64,000 bases of DNA from Aerolutibacter ruishenii (GTDB lineage Bacteria > Pseudomonadota > Gammaproteobacteria > Xanthomonadales > Xanthomonadaceae): assembly GCF_007830115.1 (NCBI RefSeq), contig NZ_VLKP01000004.1:124001-188000 (forward strand). Reading direction: 5' to 3'. The position numbers and the translations under genes are program-made. How positions within the stretch are numbered: position 1 is the stretch's first letter; each line of letters starts with the position of its first letter. The notes beneath the pieces were generated by a model. That model was not told the DNA's origin. It ran no database searches and was given only the letters and a program-made list of their open reading frames with translations. Shown here piece by piece: positions 4,535 through 15,307 of this stretch.

Positions 4535-5812
4535 TCAGAACGTCCGGTAACGCCGCTCGCGCAGCCACAACGTGGCCAGCCATTTCTCTCCCGCCAGCAC
4601 CGGCGCGCCCGCGTGCAGCGACGCAGGATCGGGGTTGCCTGCGTCGTCGGTGTTGCGGAACGCCACCGCGCGGCCCACGCGCGGTTCCACCACCCGGTTG
4701 GCCTCGGGGAAGGCCGTGCCGCCGCCGGATTCCACGTCGCACAGGTAGGTGCACAGCGTGGTCGCGCGCTGGCCCGCCTGCGGCCGGTCGCCGGCCAGCG
4801 TCTGCGGGGGCAGGTAATCGCGGTGCGGGCGGTATTCCTGGCCGGGCAGGTAGCGCAGCAGCACCATCTGTTCGGCATGGGTGAAGTCGATGCCGATCGC
4901 CGCGGCCATGCGCAACTGCAGCAGGCGCAGCGGGAAGTCCTCGATCATGTCGTTGAACGTGGCGTCGAAGGCGGTCCGCACCGGGTGCTCCAGCCATTCG
5001 CCGGTGCGCGGGTCGACCACCCGCGCGCGCTTGAGCCATGGCGCGCCCATCAGCATCACATAGCGGCATTCCTCGGGCGTGAGCAGGCCTTCGAGCGTGG
5101 CCACGCGCGGGGACTGGCTGAGCACCTGTGGCATCGGCGCTTGCAGGCTGGGTTCCAGATTGAGCTGCAACGGCCGGCTGGGGCCGTCGACGGGCACGGG
5201 GCCGGGCACCGCCGGGATTGCCGGCATGCCCGCCTGCGCCACCAGCGCCTGCCATGCGGCCAGTTCGCCACCAGCCGTCATCTCGCCGTGGCGCACGCGT
5301 TCCAGCAGCAGGCTGGCGCTGATCGGATCGCCCGCGCGCGCGGCCTGTTCCAGCAGTGTGCGCGACTGGCGCATGGCCGCGGGGTTGTCGGTGTCGCCGC
5401 CAAAGTACATCGCCAGTGCACGCATCGCCGACACGTCGCCGCCCTTGGCGGCCAGCAGCAGGCGCTGGCCCATGCGCAGGAAGTCGCGGTCCATGACGAT
5501 GCCGCCCAGCGCGATGTTGGCCAGCAGCGCCGCCGCGCCCGCTGCGCCCCCGCGCTCGGCGCGCTCCAGCCCGGTCATCGCAGCCAACGGGTCCGCGTCG
5601 CAGGCCACGCCATACAACTGCATGCGTGCGTACTCCACCTGCGCGGCCAGGTGGTTTCGCTCGGCCGCACGGCGGTAAAGGTCGAAGGCTTCCGCGGCGG
5701 CGTCGACGTCGGTGGCCAGCAGCATGCGCGCAAGCTGGAACTGCGCGTTGGGCGCGCCGCCGGCAGCATTGGCGCGCAGGGTCTGCAGGTCGGGCAGGGC
5801 GGTTGTGCTCAT
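4535..5812 (-). CDS. Sel1-repeat protein with prolyl-4-hydroxylase-like dioxygenase domain
   Basis: About 425 residues. The N-terminal half (about 10-200) is helical Sel1/TPR-like, with repeats such as AAAEAFDLYRRAAERNHLAAQ. The C-terminal half (about 245-425) is a 2-oxoglutarate/Fe(II) dioxygenase of the prolyl-4-hydroxylase alpha-subunit type. Its iron ligands are His330 and Asp332 (PHRDY) and His400, and Lys410 is suited to bind 2-oxoglutarate. It probably hydroxylates a protein substrate recruited by the helical repeats (inference). MSTTALPD is chosen as start because it begins the fold, although no clear ribosome site precedes it. It lies 114 bp downstream of the globin-reductase gene on the same strand and could be co-transcribed with it. 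Confidence 0.85.
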   Translation of the reverse strand: MSTTALPDLQTLRANAAGGAPNAQFQLARMLLATDVDAAAEAFDLYRRAAERNHLAAQVEYARMQLYGVACDADPLAAMTGLERAERGGAAGAAALLANIALGGIVMDRDFLRMGQRLLLAAKGGDVSAMRALAMYFGGDTDNPAAMRQSRTLLEQAARAGDPISASLLLERVRHGEMTAGGELAAWQALVAQAGMPAIPAVPGPVPVDGPSRPLQLNLEPSLQAPMPQVLSQSPRVATLEGLLTPEECRYVMLMGAPWLKRARVVDPRTGEWLEHPVRTAFDATFNDMIEDFPLRLLQLRMAAAIGIDFTHAEQMVLLRYLPGQEYRPHRDYLPPQTLAGDRPQAGQRATTLCTYLCDVESGGGTAFPEANRVVEPRVGRAVAFRNTDDAGNPDPASLHAGAPVLAGEKWLATLWLRERRYRTF

Positions 5813-5926
5813 GCGGTCAGGGTACCCGTGGCGGACCGGCGGCACTATCCCGCCATGCCCCGTCCATGCGGGCGTGGGCCTGCAACGGGAACCGGTGGGG
5901 GCCCGCGACGTGGCCGGCAACGCGGT

Positions 5927-7462
5927 TCAGGCGTCCGTGATCCCCGCGCACTCGGCGCAGTGCAGGCTGCCCACCCGGTATTGGTAGCGGCTGGGCGCGC
6001 CGGCGGCGATTTCCCCATGGCAACCGTCACAGACAGCGTCGATTTCCAGACGCTGCACGCTCAGGTTGTGCAGGGGCTGCTCCACGCCGCCGATGATCAT
6101 GCCCCGGGGGGCGCCCTTGACCATCTCGGTGCGGAACTGCTCGTGCAGCGCCAGCCAACGGCGGATCAGGTCTGGTGCCAGCCCGGCCTCGCGCAGCACC
6201 GATTCGAACAGGGCCTCCCGGTAGTCAAACAGTTCATCGGAGATGACCATCCAGTGGTGCGCGTTGTACGGGTTCAGGCCGAAGTACGCCTTGTTCCCAT
6301 TGAACAGGTTGGACAGGAACTCGTACTGCTTCTGGACCGCCCAGTCGCGCGTGACATTGTGGAAGAACGGCGACAGGCGCGGATCTTCGTACGCGCGCGC
6401 GTAGAACGCCTCCAGCAGGCGGGTCAGCCCCGGTCCCTGTTCCAGTGCCGCCCACAGTTCCGGGTCAGCTGGCATGCCGGCCACTTTCTCCGCGTCGCGG
6501 GGGCGCGGCGAATGGGTGAACTCGAACGGATCGGCCAGGATCCGCTCACGCGGAATGTCCGCAAGTATCGCCGCCACGCGTGCGTCCTCCACCATGGCTG
6601 GCAGTCCGCAGAGAAGCAGGGCATGTTCCTCAAGACGGGGCCGGTTTTCCAGCGCATGGGTGACGATGCGGCCGTGGGCCGCACCGGGTGTGCGCTCGCC
6701 ACTTACGCAGGGGCGGTAGTGGAAGTTCGGGTGCTGCTGGGCCAGGGTTCGCAGTTCTGCATCCAGATACAGGTCGCCAGCGTCACCCACCCCGTGGTGG
6801 AACTCGATCGGCGCGGCATGCCCCTGCGCCAACGCATCCCGCGCGACGGCCATGAGCGCCCCGGCTCCCACGCCGGTCGCCAGCATCAGCAGCGGACGAC
6901 CGCGCAAGTCGTCGCGATCGTGGCATCCGCCATGGGGGCCACGCAGGTACATGCGCTCCCCGATGCGCGCCTGCTCACACAGCCACGTGCTCATTTCCCC
7001 CCGCCTTCGAACGTGGATGCGGAAGGAAAAGTCGTCCTCGGGACGGCTGGCAATGGAGTACGGGCGTGCCAGGTTGTCCCCGCGGATCAGGTAAACGTGC
7101 TGTCCGCCACGGAACTCCAGCATGCGCAGCGGCGCCAGATCCAAGGCGTAGGTGTCCTTCGCCAGTTGCGTGCGCGCCAGCAACTCAACCTGCTGGAGCC
7201 GCTGGTTGGGATCGGGGCGCGCCAACTTCACGTCGCCACGCGGTACCGATACGCAGCACAGCACATGACTGCCCTGGGTAAGGGATGCATCCACCTCGCG
7301 CAGCGTGTCGACGCTGCCGTCCAGCAGGCGGAGTTGGCAGCAGCCACAACTGCCTTTGCGGCAGGAGTGGGTGATGTCCGCCCCCTGGCGCAGAAGGGCA
7401 TCAAGCAAGGTCTCGCCGGGCGCAGCCGAGAACACCTTGCCTTGGTACTCCAGTCGACTCAT
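5927..7462 (-). CDS. Ferredoxin / flavin reductase / truncated-globin fusion protein
   Basis: A 511-residue multidomain redox protein. Residues 1-80 are a plant-type 2Fe-2S ferredoxin domain with Cys34, Cys39, Cys42 and Cys70. Residues 90-310 are an FAD/NAD(P)H reductase with the flavin motif RPYSIAS (133-139) and the nucleotide loop GVGAG. Residues 345-445 look like a truncated (2-on-2) globin: the helix FYARAYEDPRLSPFF, then NAHHWM supplying the proximal His at 402 or 403. A short tail has two CxxC pairs (Cys478/481 and Cys502/505), likely a zinc or iron knuckle. Such a protein could pass electrons from NAD(P)H to a haem, for oxygen or nitric oxide chemistry (inference). Its ATG overlaps the stop of the roadblock gene, so it is the last gene of the GTPase operon. 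Confidence 0.85.
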   Translation of the reverse strand: MSRLEYQGKVFSAAPGETLLDALLRQGADITHSCRKGSCGCCQLRLLDGSVDTLREVDASLTQGSHVLCCVSVPRGDVKLARPDPNQRLQQVELLARTQLAKDTYALDLAPLRMLEFRGGQHVYLIRGDNLARPYSIASRPEDDFSFRIHVRRRGEMSTWLCEQARIGERMYLRGPHGGCHDRDDLRGRPLLMLATGVGAGALMAVARDALAQGHAAPIEFHHGVGDAGDLYLDAELRTLAQQHPNFHYRPCVSGERTPGAAHGRIVTHALENRPRLEEHALLLCGLPAMVEDARVAAILADIPRERILADPFEFTHSPRPRDAEKVAGMPADPELWAALEQGPGLTRLLEAFYARAYEDPRLSPFFHNVTRDWAVQKQYEFLSNLFNGNKAYFGLNPYNAHHWMVISDELFDYREALFESVLREAGLAPDLIRRWLALHEQFRTEMVKGAPRGMIIGGVEQPLHNLSVQRLEIDAVCDGCHGEIAAGAPSRYQYRVGSLHCAECAGITDA

Positions 7463-7902
7463 GCGATGCCCTTCCCGCTGGCCACGATGCCGGGAAAAGC
7501 CTCGGCGACGGCCTGCGCGCAGGTCTTGCTGTGCCCCAACACCATGCCGAGGCGGGCGTCACGCTCGGCGACCACGGCCAGCAGCAACAACGAGTTGCTG
7601 CGCGCCACGCTGCAGATCACCAGCTTCCCCTCGGTGCCCTCGATCAGGATGTGGTCCAGCGGACCGGCGGTCAGTTCGCGAAGGAACGTCTGGCCCAACG
7701 CCACCGTTGAGCTCACCATGGCGGCCATCTTGCCCTCTTCCCACCTGCGATTGCGATTTCGCATGAGGAACGGACGCCCGTCGCGCATTGCCAGCATGGC
7801 CGCGAGAATGCCGTCGCTGGCCACCAGGTGATCCAGGGCGGACGCGCAGCGGCTGCGGTCCGGTTCCAGCGTCGTGCCGACCCTGTTGTCCATCAACTGC
7901 AT
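7459..7902 (-). CDS. Roadblock/LC7-domain protein, probable GTPase regulator
   Basis: A 147-residue single-domain protein of the roadblock/LC7 (MglB/CvnB) fold. The helix ALDHLVASDGILAAMLAMRDG, the helix GKMAAMVSSTVALGQTF, the strand HILIEGTEGKLVICSV and a following hydrophobic strand match the family order. Family members form dimers that regulate Ras-like GTPases. The start at MQLMDN is favoured by AAGGGG about 8 bases upstream. A second ATG three codons in overlaps the stop of the GTPase gene as TGATG. Translation with the adjacent GTPase and the downstream redox protein looks coupled, so the GTPase is the most likely partner. Confidence 0.85.
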   Translation of the reverse strand: MQLMDNRVGTTLEPDRSRCASALDHLVASDGILAAMLAMRDGRPFLMRNRNRRWEEGKMAAMVSSTVALGQTFLRELTAGPLDHILIEGTEGKLVICSVARSNSLLLLAVVAERDARLGMVLGHSKTCAQAVAEAFPGIVASGKGIA

Positions 7903-8456
7903 GCTGTCGCCCCTTGGGGTTGCCGCACGATGGCATGCTCCAGTTGCAGGAACAGCAGTTCGAACGTGCGGACCACGTCCGCCCTCCGACGCGCGTCCAC
8001 CACGATGACCGGTGCCACGAGGCGGTGTGATTGCAGCAATTCCAGGCATTGCCTCTGGATTGCCTGCGCATCGCCCGTGCATCGGTTGACGGCGATGACG
8101 CACGGCAACCGGCGCAACTCGTCGGCGTACGTGGAAAGCGTGTCCTCCAGCCCCTGGAGACTCCCACTGCTTGCATCCACGAGGACCGCAGCGCCCAGCA
8201 GCCCCTCGCGCACCACGTCGAACATGAAGCGGAACCGGGCTTGCCCGGGTAGGCCATACAGCAGCAGCCGGCCCTGGTCTCCCAGGCACAACTCACCGTA
8301 GTCCAGCGCGACGGTGGTGGTGTCCTTGCGCAGCCGAAGTTCATCGGTGCACTCCACGTCCGTGCTCGCAGGCTCGATGTCGCTCACTGCGGCAATGCAG
8401 GTCGTCTTGCCTGCCCCAGGTTCGCCTATGAAGACAATCTTGTGCACGTTGGTCAT
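7893..8456 (-). CDS. Small Ras-like GTPase (MglA/CvnD type)
   Basis: 187-residue single-domain GTPase. The P-loop is GEPGAGKT (11-18). The switch-II region YGLPGQARFRF (67-77) has GLPGQ where classical Ras proteins have DTAGQ, as in MglA and conservon CvnD proteins. The base-binding motif is NRCT at 124-127 rather than NKxD, which may weaken guanine selectivity. There is no lipidation signal or membrane segment. The start ATG overlaps the stop of the winged-helix gene (ATGA). With two roadblock-like neighbours it forms a bacterial G-protein switch. What it controls is unknown, but the operon ends in a redox enzyme and begins with a phosphatase fusion. Confidence 0.9.
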   Translation of the reverse strand: MTNVHKIVFIGEPGAGKTTCIAAVSDIEPASTDVECTDELRLRKDTTTVALDYGELCLGDQGRLLLYGLPGQARFRFMFDVVREGLLGAAVLVDASSGSLQGLEDTLSTYADELRRLPCVIAVNRCTGDAQAIQRQCLELLQSHRLVAPVIVVDARRRADVVRTFELLFLQLEHAIVRQPQGATACS

Positions 8457-9097
8457 CGAGAAAACCCGAGTAAATGGCCGACCCGCTCCGACAGCCCTTT
8501 CCAGCGCCCTTGGGCGCGCACGACAGGAGCCGCGGCCAAACGCTGGCGTTCGACCAGTCCCTGTCGATCGAGCATCGCAATGCAGCGGCCAATGTCGACG
8601 GGCGTCAGGCCGGTGCACTGCGCGATTTCATCCATCGAGGCGCTGGATCGGCTCAGGGCGGCAAGCACGCGACGCCAGCTGGGGGGCCAGCGCTCGAAGT
8701 CCAGCGGCCAGCCCAGCAGGACATACCGGTCATCGACCTGACCTGCGTCAAGGACGTCCTGTGTCCGCGCCGCCCCCGCCGCGTCGGTGGTGGGTATGAA
8801 CTCGCTGAAAACAGCAAGCAGTTCCGCCGCCCGTGGAGGCCGGTGGATGGTGCCGACAGGGTGGGCCCGCGGACGCAGGGCGCACCCCACGAGGGGCACG
8901 GTGGGCACCTGTGGCGGCGCCCACCCGGCATCCAGATTGACCAGCAACAGGTCGGCCTCGCCATGGGTCACCACCTGCCATGGATGCTTCAGGTGCTTGC
9001 GCAGCAACTCACAGAGCGAGCGGAGCGCCTTCACTTCATCATCGTTGAAGTTGGGGCACAGGATGCGACGCGGTTGCAGAACGGTGGTGGAGGCCAT
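8453..9097 (-). CDS. Uncharacterised winged-helix protein of the GTPase operon
   Basis: 214 residues, family not recognised. The N-terminal half (about 10-110) alternates strands and helices, with the hydrophobic strand ADLLLVNLDAG, and could be a degenerate receiver-like domain without an obvious phosphoacceptor. Residues about 140-185 (ALSRSSASMDEIAQCTGL, then IGRCIAMLDRQGLVERQRL) form a clear winged helix-turn-helix. In actinobacterial conservons the gene between roadblock and GTPase encodes CvnC (DUF742), also winged-helix-like, so this may be its positional analogue (inference). It is coupled to the GTPase by ATGA. No strong ribosome site was found at this ATG. Confidence 0.7.
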   Translation of the reverse strand: MASTTVLQPRRILCPNFNDDEVKALRSLCELLRKHLKHPWQVVTHGEADLLLVNLDAGWAPPQVPTVPLVGCALRPRAHPVGTIHRPPRAAELLAVFSEFIPTTDAAGAARTQDVLDAGQVDDRYVLLGWPLDFERWPPSWRRVLAALSRSSASMDEIAQCTGLTPVDIGRCIAMLDRQGLVERQRLAAAPVVRAQGRWKGLSERVGHLLGFSR

Positions 9098-9134
9098 GGT
9101 CGATTGCGCGAGATAGCGTTATGGCGTCGGGATG

Positions 9135-9542
9135 TCAGTTCGCAGCGGCTTCACAATGCGTCATCGCCGCGCGCGCCCGCACCAGTACCATGCCGATGTT
9201 CGCGGCGATGCGGCTTACGAACACGCCCGCGTGGTCGGGGTTGCGCTTGGAGCGAACGTACACGTGGATCAGGTTGCTGCTGAACACCACGATCTCATTG
9301 AAGTAGTGGTGGTTGCGGCCCGTGATGCCGCGCGACTTGTCGAAAAGCCGCTCGATCTCAACGACGTTCTTTCCCTGGAAAAGATCGGCCGTGGCAGCGG
9401 CGACCAGGTCGAGCACTTCGCCCGGGTGCGAATCGACTGTCTTCACGCCCAGCAACATTCCGCTGATCATGTCGACGTAACCGGTTGCCACGCACTCGGG
9501 GATTTCCGACTGGGCTACCGCAAGAGCCTTATCCAACGACAT
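9135..9542 (-). CDS. Roadblock-like small protein
   Basis: 135 residues. The pattern of an N-terminal helix, a glycine-containing strand (ISGMLLGVKT), a long helix (VLDLVAAATADLF), two strands (FNEIVVFSSNLIHVYVRS) and a C-terminal helix (FVSRIAANIGMVLVRARA) is that of a roadblock/LC7 fold. Similarity is by pattern rather than by a signature motif. It has a strong ribosome site (GAGGAGAGG) and overlaps the end of the ABC-phosphatase gene by 14 bases. If correct, the operon carries two different roadblock proteins, which could form a heterodimer or act on opposite GTPase states (inference). Confidence 0.65.
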   Translation of the reverse strand: MSLDKALAVAQSEIPECVATGYVDMISGMLLGVKTVDSHPGEVLDLVAAATADLFQGKNVVEIERLFDKSRGITGRNHHYFNEIVVFSSNLIHVYVRSKRNPDHAGVFVSRIAANIGMVLVRARAAMTHCEAAAN

Positions 9543-10752
9543 TTGACCTCTCCTCGCTACTGCCTGGTATGTGCCAACCGCGGATTCGGTCGGCGAACTC
9601 GTTTACGAAGCGCTGTTGCGCATCGCTCTGTATTGCCAATGGATTGGCGCGTCGCACCTTGGCGATCGCAACCTCTGGCTCGTCCCCGAACCATGTCAGG
9701 ACCAGTGCGAGGGCGGTCCCCGTGCGGCCCAGCCCAGCCCGACAGTGGAACGCCACCGCCTGGTTGTCGCGGATTGGCTGCTCCGCCCGACGGCACAGGT
9801 CGACCGCCTGGTTGAAGCTGGGGGGCGCCATGTCGTTCACGGGAATGTGCAGGTGCGCGATGCCGTACTCGCGCGCCTCCGTGACCGCGTATTCGCACCG
9901 CTCCTCAAGGCAGATCAGCGAGCGCACATCGGCCTCGGCCAGGCGGTCGTACTGTGTTTTCGCATCGACGATCAGCCCTGGTCGGCTCATCCCGCACAAA
10001 AGGCCCGGAACCACCCACCAGATCCCGTCCTGGATGACGGCCCTGTCGGTTGGCAGGTTGCAGTTGCCGGTTGCCACGTATGTCCTTCCTGCGTCGGTGG
10101 CCGGCGCCGCGAAGAAGTCGGCGCTGGGCGCAATTTCCTGGATTCGTCCTCCCGCCAGCAGCGCCGTGTATCCGCCCAGGGAAAGGCATTCCTGGCGGTT
10201 GTGCGTGGCCGCCACCACCATGTGGCGGCAGGCGAGGTCATGAAGACGTCTGCATAGACGTTCGCCGTGCTCCTCGGATAACCCGGCGCCAGGTTCGTCG
10301 ACCAGGACCAATGGGGTTTCGAAGTGCAGGGCGGCCAGTACGGCGAGCAGGCGCCGGAGTGAACGATCCAGCCCAGCGCAGGGCTGGTCGAGCAGTCGGA
10401 TCACCTCGTCCAGGCCGTGGGCCTGTAGCCACGCTGGCAGTTCGTCCAGGCGCATCCGCAAAAAGTGGGTCAGTGCGTCGGCGAGCGGCTCCGCCCCGGC
10501 CAGCTGAAGATGCTGCGGCACCAAGGTGGCGCGGGCGTTGGGTCCGCCCACGTCCTCTCCATCGAGAAGCGCGGTCCCCATTCGAGTGATGTTGCCGTTG
10601 TCGCGGGAGGCCATTGCTGACAGCAGCGACGACTTGCCGGCGCCACCTGGCCCGATCAGGAAAAGCATCCCCGGACTTTCAACCGACAACGTTGTGTCCC
10701 GGACCACCGGGCTCCCTTGTCGATAAACGCTGAAGCGCTGCAAGACAAGCAT
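9529..10752 (-). CDS. ABC-type ATPase fused to a Cys-based tyrosine/dual-specificity phosphatase
   Basis: 407 residues with two enzymes in one chain. Residues 1-215 form an ABC ATPase: Walker A GPGGAGKSS (34-42), Q-loop VPQH near 79, Walker B VLVDEP near 147 and H-loop ATHNRQ near 175. The signature loop CAGLDRSLRRLL is degenerate compared with LSGGQ. Residues about 260-400 form a protein-tyrosine/dual-specificity phosphatase with P-loop HCRAGLGRTG (Cys337, Arg343) and a general-acid Asp307 in IPVNDM. No membrane segment is present, so it is either a soluble regulator or pairs with a permease not encoded here. It is the first gene of the GTPase operon and is divergent from the LuxR-type regulator. 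I know of no described protein of this architecture. Confidence 0.85.
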   Translation of the reverse strand: MLVLQRFSVYRQGSPVVRDTTLSVESPGMLFLIGPGGAGKSSLLSAMASRDNGNITRMGTALLDGEDVGGPNARATLVPQHLQLAGAEPLADALTHFLRMRLDELPAWLQAHGLDEVIRLLDQPCAGLDRSLRRLLAVLAALHFETPLVLVDEPGAGLSEEHGERLCRRLHDLACRHMVVAATHNRQECLSLGGYTALLAGGRIQEIAPSADFFAAPATDAGRTYVATGNCNLPTDRAVIQDGIWWVVPGLLCGMSRPGLIVDAKTQYDRLAEADVRSLICLEERCEYAVTEAREYGIAHLHIPVNDMAPPSFNQAVDLCRRAEQPIRDNQAVAFHCRAGLGRTGTALALVLTWFGDEPEVAIAKVRRANPLAIQSDAQQRFVNEFADRIRGWHIPGSSEERSNVVG

Positions 10753-10873
10753 CCATCCCCCATACGACCTGCGTGCTGCGCCTTGCCTGGAGCCGCGACA
10801 ACCGTCCTGCCGGAAATTTCGCGACGCTCCAAGCGAAGGCGATTGTTATCGGGGACCGTGGGGGACGGGTATA

Positions 10874-10899
10874 GGGGAGTCCCCGGGGTGCGGAGTCCC
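10874..10899. promoter_or_regulatory. Candidate operator: repeated GGAGTCCC in divergent promoter region
   Basis: GGAGTCCC occurs at 10876-10883 and again at 10892-10899, a 16-bp spacing that would place both on similar helix faces. The first copy is the core of the palindrome GGGGAGTCCCC. It lies between the ABC-phosphatase operon and the LuxR-type regulator gene. Its role as binding site is inference from position and symmetry. Confidence 0.35.
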
Positions 10900-10960
10900 G
10901 AGGCAATCTGGCCTTACTCGATGCTATCGTTCGCGGCTTGCAAGGTGAGATGCAGGTCGC

Positions 10961-11734
10961 ATGAGCCGCAGTAACCATCATCTGCCCGCGATCGTCGGGC
11001 CCACCGGCATGGACGAGAACACGTGGTCGCCCGCAACGATGGTGATTTCATCGCGCAGCAGCCTGCTCGAGGCGGGCTTGCTGACGTTGCTTCCGGAGGT
11101 GCCGCAACTCAGGCACATCGCAAGCACCAGTGACGCTCCAGGAACGGTACACCTGCTGTTGCAGCACAAGCCGGACGTGCTCCTGCTCGATCATGACCTG
11201 GCTGCCGACGTGCATGGCCACGCTGCGGTAAATGGAGCGGATTTTTCCGGGCACAGTCCCCGCGTGCTGTTGCTGTCGACCCGGCATCATGTCGGTATGC
11301 AGTCTGGCTGCGGCGAGCGTTGTGCGTGCGGATTCGTGCGCGACCGGTCGCCGCTGCGGCACATACGCTCCGCGATGCGTATCATCGGAGGCTGCGGCGC
11401 CTCGCGATTGGGCGACGGTTATTGCAGCAGCTGCCCCCTGCGTCAGTCGGTGATGCTGCCCAAGCTTCCGTTGTCCGAACGCGAGTACCAGGTCTTCGAT
11501 CACATCGGCCGGGAACACGGGAACCTGCAGATGTCCCGCGAATTAAGATTGAGCGTCAAGACCATCGAGTCGCATCGCGAAAGCATCAAGCAGAAGCTTG
11601 GGCTCGGCTCGGCCGGGGCGCTGCGGGAGGCGGCCATGGCATGGCACCGCGGCGACTACGTGTTGAAGCCGGATTCCATTGCAAGATCCGCCCAGGGGAA
11701 CGCTACTCCAGCATCGGCGAAACCCCGACGCTAG
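10961..11734 (+). CDS. LuxR/FixJ-family regulator with a cysteine-rich receiver-like domain
   Basis: 257 residues. Residues about 25-145 resemble a receiver domain with a possible phosphoacceptor Asp77 in VLLLDHDL. The region where receivers carry the switch Lys is replaced by a cysteine cluster, CGERCACGF (Cys117, 121, 123), joined by Cys145 and YCSSC (Cys155, 158). The C-terminal LuxR-type helix-turn-helix (about 170-230) has the core LSEREYQVF and SVKTIESHRESI. The cysteines could bind metal or an iron-sulfur cluster, or form disulfides, making it a redox-responsive regulator (inference). It is divergent from the GTPase/globin operon and is a natural candidate to control it. Its ribosome site is weak. 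Confidence 0.8.
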   Translation: MSRSNHHLPAIVGPTGMDENTWSPATMVISSRSSLLEAGLLTLLPEVPQLRHIASTSDAPGTVHLLLQHKPDVLLLDHDLAADVHGHAAVNGADFSGHSPRVLLLSTRHHVGMQSGCGERCACGFVRDRSPLRHIRSAMRIIGGCGASRLGDGYCSSCPLRQSVMLPKLPLSEREYQVFDHIGREHGNLQMSRELRLSVKTIESHRESIKQKLGLGSAGALREAAMAWHRGDYVLKPDSIARSAQGNATPASAKPRR

Positions 11735-11836
11735 GGGCGCCCTCCGCGTTGCGTGGCGGGCATTGCGCGGGTCACGGGCCCCGGGGAGGGCGGCACGCTA
11801 CAATCGGGTCATACCCGAAAGTACAGACTGCGCCCC

Positions 11837-14800
11837 ATGAGCACCCCCGCCAGCCACCTCCCCGAAGCCGTCGCCGAGACCACCCCGCTGCGCTTCGTCA
11901 CCGCCGCCAGCCTGTTCGACGGCCACGACGCCGCCATCAACATCATGCGGCGCCTGATCCAGGGGCAGGGCGCGGAGGTGATCCACCTGGGCCACAACCG
12001 CTCGGTGGAGGACGTGGTGCGCGCCGCGCTGCAGGAAGACGCCGACGGCATCGCCCTGTCCAGCTACCAGGGCGGCCACGTGGAGTACTTCAAGTACATG
12101 GTGGACATGCTCAAGGAGCGTGGCGCCGGCCACATCCGCGTGTTCGGCGGCGGTGGCGGCACCATCACTCCGGAGGAGATCCGCGAACTGCAGGCCTACG
12201 GCGTGGAGCGCCTCTACCACCCCAACGACGGCATGCACATGGGCCTGGTGGCCATGATCGAGGATGTGGTGCGCCGCGCCGCCGAGGCCCGCCAGTCCGC
12301 GCAGGTGCCGGACAAGGCCGCGGACATCCACGATGAAATCACCATCGGCCGCATGCTGAGCGCCATCGAAGAAGGCCTGCTGGACGAAGGCCAACTGGCC
12401 CACCTGCGCAAGCAGTGGCAGCTGGCCGGCGGCAAGACCCCGGTGGTGGGTATCACAGGCACCGGCGGCGCGGGCAAGTCCAGCGTCACCGACGAACTGC
12501 TCAACCGCTTCCTGGCCAACTTCCCGGAGATGCGCATTGCGGTGATCTCCGTGGACCCGACCCGCCGCCGCACCGGTGGCGCGCTGCTGGGCGACCGCAT
12601 CCGCATGAACTCGCTGCGCAGCAAGCGCGTGTACATGCGCTCCATGGCCACCCGCCGCCAGCACGTGGCCACCAACGTGGTGCTGAAGGACTGCATCGGC
12701 TTCCTCAAGGGCCTGGGCTACGACCTGGTCATCGTGGAGACCGCCGGCATCGGCCAGAGCGACTCGGAGATCGTGGACCTGGTCGACTTCCCCATGTACG
12801 TGATGACCAGCGACTTCGGCGCGCCGAGCCAGCTGGAAAAGATCGACATGCTGGACTACGCCGAACTCGTCGTGCTCAACAAGTTCGACAAGCGCGGCGC
12901 CGAAGACGCCCTGCGCGACGTGCGCAAGCAGTGGAAGCGCAACCGCGCCAAGTTCGACATCAAGGACGAGGACATCCCCGTCTACCCGACCATTGCCAGC
13001 CAGTTCAACGACCCCGGCGTGAGCTGGATGTTCGCCAACCTGTGCCGCCTGCTGCGCGCCAAGCTGGGCGGTGAGGGCGGCATCGACACCGCCCACTGCA
13101 ACTGGCAGCCCGACATCGACACCACGCTGAAGGAGCCGCGCGCCACCGTGCTGATCCCCGGCGCGCGCGTGCGCTACCTGGCCGAGATTGCCGAGCAGGG
13201 CCGCGGCATCAACCGTCAGATCGAGACGCAGGCCGAAGTGGCCGACCGCGCGCAGAGCTACTGGCAGGCACTCAACGCCCTGGGTGACGCCGCACTGCCC
13301 AAGGCGCTGGACCTGTACGCCACCGAAGCCGTGCAGCCCGGTGCCGAAGGCGCCGACCGCAGCCTGCTGACCCTGCGCCAGCGCTACAACGACGCCGTGC
13401 AGACCCTCAGCAGCGAAGCGCTGAAGCTGCTGCGCGAGTGGCCCGCCCGCCTGAAGTCGATCACCGACGAGGTGAACGAGTACCAGGTGCGCGACAAGGT
13501 GATCCGCGTGGAGAACTACCGCGAGTCGCTCAGCCACCAGCAGATTCCCAAGATCGCCGCGCCCACCTACAAGGCCTGGGGCGAGCTGCTGACATTCCTG
13601 CAGAAGGAAAACCTGCCGGGCTACTACCCCTACACCGGCGGCGTGTACCCGTACCGCCGCACCGGCGAAGACCCGATCCGCATGTTCGCGGGCGAGGGCA
13701 CCCCGGAGCGCACCAACCGCCGCTTCCACTACCTGAGCGTGGGCCAGCCGGCCGCGCGCCTGTCCACCGCGTTCGACAGCGTCACCCTGTACGGGGAAGA
13801 CCCGGCCGTGCGCCCGGACATCTTCGGCAAGATCGGCAACAGCGGCGTCAACATCGCCACGCTGGACGACATGAAGAAGCTGTACTCCGGCTTCGACCTG
13901 TGCGCGCCCAGCACCAGCGTGTCGATGACCATCAACGGCCCGGCGCCGATCATCCTGGCGATGTTCATGAACACCGCCATCGACCAGCAGGTGGAGAAGT
14001 ACCTGCGCGAAGACCAGGCCCGCTGGGACGCCGCGCATGACAAGATCCAGGCGATGTTCGAGGGCCGCAATCGCCCCGAATACAGCGGCATGCTGCCCGA
14101 GACCAACGACGGCCTGGGTCTGGGCCTGCTGGGCGTGACCGGCGACCAGGTGGTGGACGCCGAGACCTACGCGAAGATCAAGGCGCACACCCTGGCCACC
14201 GTGCGCGGCACCGTGCAGGCGGACATCCTCAAGGAAGACCAGGCGCAGAACACCTGCATCTTCAGCACCGAGTTCGCCCTGCGCATGATGGGCGACATCC
14301 AGCAGTACTTCGTGGACAAGAACGTCCGCAATTTCTACTCGGTCAGCATCAGCGGTTACCACATCGCCGAAGCCGGCGCGAACCCGATCAGCCAGCTGGC
14401 CTTCACCCTCAGCAACGGCTTCACCATCGTGGAGTACTACCTGGCGCGCGGGATGAAGATCGACGACTTCGCGCCCAACCTGTCGTTCTTCTTCAGCAAC
14501 GGCATGGACCCGGAGTACACCGTGATTGGCCGCGTGGCCCGCCGCATCTGGGCGCGCGCCATGCGCGAGCGCTACGGCGCCAGCGCCCGCAGCCAGATGA
14601 TGAAGTACCACATCCAGACCAGCGGCCGCAGCCTGCACGCGCAGGAGATCCAGTTCAACGACATCCGCACCACGCTGCAGGCGCTGTACGCGCTGTTCGA
14701 CAACTGCAACAGCCTGCATACCAACGCCTACGACGAGGCCATCACCACGCCGACTGAAGAGAGCGTGCGCCGCGCCGTGGCCATCCAGATGATCATCAAC

Positions 14801-15307
14801 AAGGAGCTGGGGCTGAACTTCTGCGAGAACCCGTGGCAGGGTAGCTTCATCGTGGACAAGCTGACCGACATCGTGGAAGAGGCTGTGTACAAGGAGTTCG
14901 AGGCCATCAGCGAGCGCGGCGGCGTGCTGGGCGCCATGGACACCATGTACCAGCGCGGCAAGATCCAGGAAGAGAGCCTGTACTACGAGCACAAGAAGCA
15001 CGACGGCAGCCTGCCGCTGATCGGCGTGAACACCTTCCTGCCCAAGGACCACGGCGGCGACATCGTCACCGAGATCGAGCTGATCCGCAGTACCGAGGGG
15101 GAGAAGGGGCAGCAGATCGAGAATGTGCAGGCGTACCAGGCCGCGAGAAATTCTTACAGCGAAGCCGGGCTGCGCGGCCTACAGTCGACGGCGCGGGAGC
15201 GTAGGAATGTGTTTGAGAGCCTGATGGAGGCGGTGAAGACGCATAGCCTGGGGCAGATTAGCCATGCGTTGTATGACGTTGGTGGGGAGTATCGGCGGAA
15301 TATGTAA
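11837..15307 (+). CDS. icmF: Fused isobutyryl-CoA mutase with G-protein chaperone domain
   Basis: 1156 residues in the IcmF order. The N-terminal cobalamin-binding domain (about 15-155) has base-off ligand His30 in DGHDAAI. A MeaB/ArgK-type GTPase follows (P-loop GTGGAGKS at 208-215, later VLNKFD), then a linker, then the large mutase TIM barrel with [12 protein letters not shown]. Known IcmF enzymes interconvert isobutyryl-CoA and n-butyryl-CoA, and more slowly isovaleryl-CoA and pivalyl-CoA, using adenosylcobalamin. The built-in GTPase protects and reloads the cofactor. Annotation as methylmalonyl-CoA mutase would be wrong, because that enzyme has the B12 domain at its C-terminus. It probably serves branched-chain acyl-CoA metabolism alongside the leucine genes at 0.6-4.3 kb. 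No clear ribosome site was seen. Confidence 0.93.

Follow-up and report, generated by a model that had tools for sequence, protein, structure and literature searches.

We analysed a 64,000-nucleotide stretch of DNA from Aerolutibacter ruishenii (contig NZ_VLKP01000004.1, positions 124,001 to 188,000), hereafter the window, and examined a run of six contiguous genes on its minus strand. The genes, named A to F in the direction of transcription, and two features of F are listed below with their positions in the window.

A, 9529-10752, minus strand: ATP-binding cassette (ABC) ATPase (residues 1-235) fused to a tyrosine/dual-specificity phosphatase (residues ~245-363)
B, 9135-9542, minus strand: roadblock-fold protein
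C, 8453-9097, minus strand: receiver-like domain (residues ~7-107) followed by a winged helix (residues ~122-194)
D, 7893-8456, minus strand: MglA-type small GTPase with the motifs GEPGAGKT, GLPGQ, NRCT and DAR
E, 7459-7902, minus strand: Robl_LC7 (MglB-like) protein
F, 5927-7462, minus strand: Fer2 domain, FAD/NAD reductase, truncated globin and four-cysteine tail
Globin domain of F, 6122-6427, minus strand: residues 346-447, with an invariant Tyr (residue 354) and His-His (residues 402-403)
CxxC...CxxC tail of F, 5948-6031, minus strand: residues 478-505, a probable metal knuckle

The original prediction, made from the DNA letters alone, had described six minus-strand genes that overlap or nearly touch, and this was borne out from 10752 to 5927. 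A and B overlap by 14 bp, B and C are separated by 37 bp, and the C/D, D/E and E/F junctions overlap by 4, 10 and 4 bp. The domain names it had given to all six genes agreed with Pfam, supplemented for B by a structural model and Foldseek. Separate promoters inside the run, which it had named as a refuting observation, were sought in a scan of 5800-11100; no sigma-70-like sites were returned, and the 4 terminator-like sites found there (3.1 expected) were at chance level. The scan is compatible with one transcript for A-F and is weak evidence either way. The nearest named relative, Lysobacter daejeonensis GH1-9 (locus L127), carries the six genes in identical order, with a B protein that is 99% identical.

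B had no Pfam match above cut-off (best Skp1, 0.024). Its AlphaFold model (mean predicted local distance difference test score, pLDDT, 85) retrieved roadblock/MglB structures with Foldseek (best 1e-6), and by this model B has a roadblock fold, in keeping with its earlier description as roadblock-like. The homologues of B split into two subfamilies, B1 (the window type) and B2; four B2 rows formed a separate group in a tree of B. Among the 16 B2 loci read (L111-L126), D and E lay nearby in 12 and A in none. The B1 family gave no useful Pfam or NCBIfam match and matched no PADLOC model (PHROGs was not searched).

We then scanned 84,980 species genomes with B1 as the only query and obtained 317 confirmed stretches. 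The 80 best by similarity to B were used and 79 loci were kept, a similarity-ranked sample that leans to Lysobacterales. The loci came from Pseudomonadota (alpha, beta and gamma), Myxococcota, one planctomycete and one acidobacteriote; we assigned the group labels manually from the titles of the records, and in two of them the title reads Deltaproteobacteria. Within ~9 kb of B, the phosphatase of A was observed in 73/79 loci, the globin in 34/79, the GTPase in 33/79, C in 23/79 and E in 35/79 at a loose threshold; stricter thresholds gave 20/79 for C and 28/79 for E. In 68 of the 73 loci the phosphatase was no more than 300 bp away from B, and in 69/79 loci it was fused to the ABC domain. On this gene content, the most widely kept part is A together with B, not the GTPase core, and the placing of the core in the GTPase, roadblock and winged-helix genes had been mistaken.

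Gene order was assigned by best domain position in 88 loci, namely the 79 and nine others, window included (L105 and L189 are on the same contig). The genes recurred in two orders. The order A-B-C-D-E, with or without F, was found in 18/88 loci, and one more locus had this order with F reversed. Another 18/88 read D-A-B together with E, F or both (13 with E, 5 without). Three loci read A-B-C, each ending soon past C, and 20, of which the 79 contribute 18, had only A-B. Within the family, B was present in 8/149 genomes and a D-like GTPase in 38/149. The co-occurrence expected for Lysobacteraceae was thus seen there and beyond, but it is patchy.

Several other families recurred beside B. Most beta/gamma loci with D had a longer gene ahead of D (cluster c6, 22 genes, 3 of which match the C profile weakly). 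An Arf-like GTPase family (c11, Pfam-checked in two) was found near B in seven Myxococcota loci and the acidobacteriote, and a metallophosphatase (c50) in three of those eight. Cluster c3, represented by a PAS/HisKA/receiver protein, appeared in 35/88 neighbourhoods; histidine kinases were rejected as a fixed part, this being a large generic family whose distance and strand vary. These neighbour counts are lower bounds, obtained with a crude gene caller that missed B in some loci, and the Pfam checks covered one or two representatives of each family.

Gene A matched ABC_tran (1.4e-7) and a dual-specificity phosphatase family (DSP, Tc-R-P type, 2.6e-24) in Pfam. The phosphatase motif HCx5R[ST] was intact in 86/86 loci. 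A Walker A pattern was found in 77/83 loci and a DEP-type Walker B in 67/83; the ABC signature motif, sought with a crude pattern, was not found in 65/83. Up to five contigs are counted twice in these motif counts. No membrane domain was seen in A, and no transporter membrane gene turned up in a Pfam scan of recurring neighbour families, a subset of the neighbours, although the ABC domain itself is present in A. A defence-system reading was also considered and rejected: the PADLOC matches of A were to a generic ATPase, the other five proteins gave weak matches or none, and no phage record matched B at 1e-5.

To compare rates of divergence, we measured median identity to the window in three hand-picked groups of loci (13 Lysobacterales-type, 15 beta/gamma, 15 Myxococcota and other). 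The medians were 76, 61 and 65% for B, against 55, 39 and 39% for the phosphatase. The GTPase gave 61 and 39% and was absent from the third group, and the globin, where present, gave 63, 51 and 55% (5, 13 and 5 loci). By these figures, B is the slowest-evolving gene among those measured. Residues C17, H39, H79, Y80, E83, H93 and R97 were among the invariant positions in an alignment of 12 rows (A2), which had been gathered by searching for the GTPase and with a profile, and not through a B motif. The same residues were kept in 87/87 rows of loci fetched with two B motifs (TVDSHPxEV and HYF[QN]E...) as bait, where the invariance of H39 and H79 is partly by construction and C17 and H93 lie outside the motifs. 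B homologues with 37-40% identity also occur on five Ruegeria plasmids. In the single homologue that was translated, C17 and H93 are conserved, H39 is missing, and a His stands one position away from H79.

Gene F matched Fer2, FAD_binding_6, NAD_binding_1 and Bac_globin in Pfam, each above cut-off. The phosphatase and the haem/flavin redox protein predicted for this operon were both recovered. Its sequence matches in the PDB were BenC-type reductases, THB1 and group 1 truncated haemoglobins. F carries the domains that a globin-type nitric oxide (NO) dioxygenase would need, a globin with an electron donor domain, together with the Tyr and His residues of its globin, and is predicted to bind haem. 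The globin Tyr and two His were kept in 40/40 rows (a few contigs twice) and the four tail cysteines in 38/40, the exceptions (L193, L204) being truncated where the contig or the fetched stretch ends. Five loci (L160, L166, L194, L196, L201; L160 Pfam-checked) have lost the reductase and retain Fer2-globin-Cys, and four (L108, L153, L154, L159; L159 Pfam-checked) have lost both reductase and Fer2 and retain globin-Cys alone. Across these homologues, the constant part of F is the globin with the four cysteines, and the reductase is optional. A small CxxCxxCC gene (PF03692, checked in L167) precedes F in the beta/gamma loci L150, L162, L165, L167, L169, L172 and L178.

The globin co-occurred with B at the level of whole genomes. 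Full-length matches to the globin and four-Cys part (E<1e-70) were observed in 5/369 class genomes, all among the 8/369 with strong B, and in 3/149 family genomes, all among the eight with B (one distant, G079). In a phylum sample of 398 genomes, strong F was found in 2 (G000, G512) and strong B in 5 (G000, G029, G512, G370, G692). G512 carries F as a gene of its own, on a different contig from B, yet the two co-occur. Because they co-occur, once without linkage, a functional tie between F and B is suggested.

A second type of globin gene was seen in other genomes. Proteins with an N-terminal globin and a truncated globin occur in L251, L252, L253, L254, L255, L256, L260 and L126 (Pfam-checked in L251 only). 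Such a two-globin protein and B2-type roadblock genes shared one stretch in 8/15 loci; seven of these loci also have E, and seven have a D-type GTPase, in one case as a weak partial match. The eight belong to another class of the phylum and to one gamma genome, and seven of them had been pre-picked for globin plus roadblock; outside those seven, the two-globin protein was found in only one (L260) of the eight remaining loci. Since seven of the eight were picked knowingly, these loci are only a lead, giving minor support from a second lineage.

We next considered the GTPase genes. The C protein contains a MarR_2-type winged helix (Pfam 1.6e-6), and its AlphaFold2 model had a mean pLDDT of 84 and a predicted TM score of 0.51. 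In VIA-align, residues 7-107 matched receivers with Z about 9 and residues 122-194 a winged helix with Z 9.6; a best Z of 7 to 8 is typical for models without a clear match, so support for the domains of C is moderate. Foldseek gave no match to the C model at E<=0.001. D matched ATP_bind_1 (3.3e-10) through its P-loop and gave weak MglA matches in the PDB (best 0.0055). It reads GLPGQ, NRCT and DAR, and GxPGQ and DxR were present in 39/39 B1-linked D proteins. E matched Robl_LC7 (PF03259, 1.6e-5, 25 bits against a cut-off of 23) and no other PF03259 match at E<=0.001 was found in the genome.

It has been documented that Group 3 MglA systems of beta/gamma-proteobacteria combine MglA, one or two MglBs and a protein whose N-terminal part is receiver-like and whose C-terminal part is a winged helix, and that their GTPases have a deviant G4 and DAR at G5 (parts of Wuichet and Sogaard-Andersen 2014, PMC4316618). 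We found the same here: a C protein with these two domains (at the moderate support given above), a D protein with GxPGQ at G3, a deviant G4 and DAR at G5, and adjoining MglB homologues in E (Robl_LC7) and B (roadblock fold). C-D-E thus fits a Group 3 MglA system by D motifs, C model and gene content. The GTPase, roadblock and winged-helix genes do stand together, and none of the six genes is a kinase, both as foreseen. The conservon-like kinship claimed for them was not supported, since C-D-E fits Group 3 and not Group 2.

Taken together, our preferred reading, to which we give a probability of roughly 40%, is that A-F encode one signalling device, in which a signal would run from a haem globin through B to a phosphatase, with a Group 3 switch added in this lineage. 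F would bind haem and keep it reduced through its own 2Fe-2S/flavin module, and the input would be the ligand or redox state of that haem, with O2 or NO bound or turned over. F may dock on the roadblock adaptor B through its globin/four-Cys part. B and A would form the core effector, in which ATP-driven dimerisation of the ABC domain might gate the Cx5R phosphatase, which would then dephosphorylate some target. In this lineage, the Group 3 MglA switch (D, the roadblock E as a putative GTPase-activating protein, and C) would be coupled to the A-B core, so that GTP state and haem state could jointly set the output of C, probably transcription. The sensing of redox state, oxygen or NO put forward in the original prediction is plausible and gains support from globin co-occurrence, but the signal itself is something we infer.

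A broader version goes further. In it, the ABC-phosphatase and B1 form the core of a new kind of signalling system, with the truncated globin as haem sensor, the invariant Cys and His residues of B1 as a ligand or metal site, and different GTPase classes plugging in by lineage. Beta/gamma-proteobacteria would use Group 3 MglA, some Myxococcota would use Arf-like GTPases, and Ruegeria would use dynamins. We put this forward only tentatively.

Several results weigh against a single device. F was not near B in 45/79 loci, of which sample 25/79 have less than 4.5 kb on one side of B, and three of the eight strong-B class genomes (G029, G370, G507) had no F match whatever. Because of these two results, the module appears to work without F: the globin belongs with B, and B is independent of the globin. 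The F/B co-occurrence, which in itself speaks for the device, gave Fisher values of 1.0e-9 (class) and 1.0e-4 (family) that ignore kinship and come from samples sharing genomes. At strict thresholds, C, D and E were absent near B from every one of the 27 Myxococcota-labelled loci, in 9 of which B lies near a stretch end. No FNR/Anr-type box was found ahead of A in 10753-10960 at <=2 mismatches, other regulator boxes not having been sought. In Ruegeria, the B homologue of L222 (5901-19165) and L223 lies amid four dynamin-family genes, after which come genes for a protein kinase and an FHA protein, with PP2C in L222 only.

The strongest rival takes F for a detoxifying NO dioxygenase, co-expressed with a Group 3 MglA/ABC-phosphatase module that only times its making. 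F has the domains that a self-sufficient NO dioxygenase needs, and in G512 it stands alone. Known NO dioxygenases, to our knowledge, make no use of a four-Cys tail, and we count this against the idea, as we do the several loci that drop the reductase and keep globin and Cys tail. A precedent exists in Legionella pneumophila, where, according to a review by Gardner (PMC3820574), an operon under NsrR control contains genes for both a truncated globin and a ferredoxin reductase. The co-occurrence of F with B, once unlinked, suggests a functional tie. We regard this explanation as possible but doubtful.

Less likely still is a Group 3 MglA polarity or type IV pilus switch, in which D, E and B would set polarity or pili and A and F would be lineage accessories. 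It draws on the fit of C-D-E to Group 3 as outlined in PMC4316618, and on a report from Snodgrassella that motility in soft agar is altered when an orphan Group 3 mglB is changed (PMC11112851). Against it, all 27 Myxococcota-labelled loci, and others besides, have A and B with no Group 3 GTPase close by, and we consider it unlikely.

A true conservon without its kinase is very improbable. It shares a GTPase, roadblock and winged-helix content in outline, but C is a receiver-like and winged-helix protein rather than DUF742. CvnC we take to be a DUF742 protein; DUF742 (PF05331) was not found in C or in the genome, in a search where none of 14 control genomes passed the curated cut-off, so that it had no strong positive control. 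Taxon and motifs are moreover those of Group 3 in the published description (PMC4316618, in part). Chance joining of unrelated genes in a compact genome would suit the patchy distribution of the set, but is hardly credible when the same genes stand together in two orders across many families.

The neighbourhood of the operon contains further genes. A LuxR/NarL-type regulator (10961-11734, plus strand; GerE 5.4e-9) is divergent from A and is a candidate operon regulator. Its four cysteines were kept in 6/6 cluster members beside A, the window copy counted, which suggests a putative metal or Fe-S site. FNR-box-like sites (TTGATNNNNATCAA, <=2 mismatches) occurred 16 times in the whole window against 8.1 expected, none of them upstream of A. 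Downstream of F, a minus-strand gene (4535-5920) has a weak Sel1 repeat and a 2-oxoglutarate-Fe(II) oxygenase domain, and in the L. daejeonensis locus, too, F is followed by a reading frame with Sel1 (L032:1-600). An open reading frame of 1184 residues (11753-15307, plus strand) was judged by eye to be IcmF-like, presumably a fused B12-dependent acyl-CoA mutase and G-protein chaperone.

For most bacterial MglA-type switches, inputs and outputs are still obscure. The recurring context reported here links a G-protein switch with a haem globin and an ATPase-phosphatase, and it offers a concrete putative signal (O2, NO or redox), a putative enzymatic output (dephosphorylation) and contacts that can be tested. 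A further point of interest is a roadblock family without a name, with 317 confirmed stretches, that is better conserved than its measured partners.

The C-D-E-(B) part is already known in outline. A link between ABC-phosphatase, roadblock and globin was not found in the open-licence literature searched, and the words globin and phosphatase are missing from the main text of PMC4316618. There is a fair chance that the A-B(-globin) core will turn out to be a separate kind of system.

We finally compared the operon with known systems. Like a conservon (Group 2; CvnA-D), it joins a GTPase, a roadblock protein and an accessory protein in one operon, but it has no CvnA kinase and no DUF742, its C protein is another one, and it comes from another taxon. 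Flavohaemoglobins and pairs of truncated globin with ferredoxin reductase share with F the combination of globin and FAD/NAD reductase, THB1 and group 1 truncated globins being its nearest PDB sequences. F differs in its order of Fer2, reductase, globin and Cys tail, and in having an optional reductase half. HGbRL of Methylacidiphilum, in the part of its description consulted here (PMC4476040), likewise ties a globin to a roadblock domain and is a proposed sensor; since this fusion has been described, a globin-to-roadblock signal has already been proposed. HGbRL is, by the same account, a single fused protein with a flavohaemoglobin-type globin, unique to its genus and without phosphatase, reductase or four-Cys tail. 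A further close likeness is to Group 3 MglA systems of beta/gamma-proteobacteria, which have counterparts of C, of D with its deviant G4 and DAR at G5, and of E and B as MglBs; to these the window adds an ABC-phosphatase fusion, the distinct roadblock subfamily B1 and a globin-reductase.

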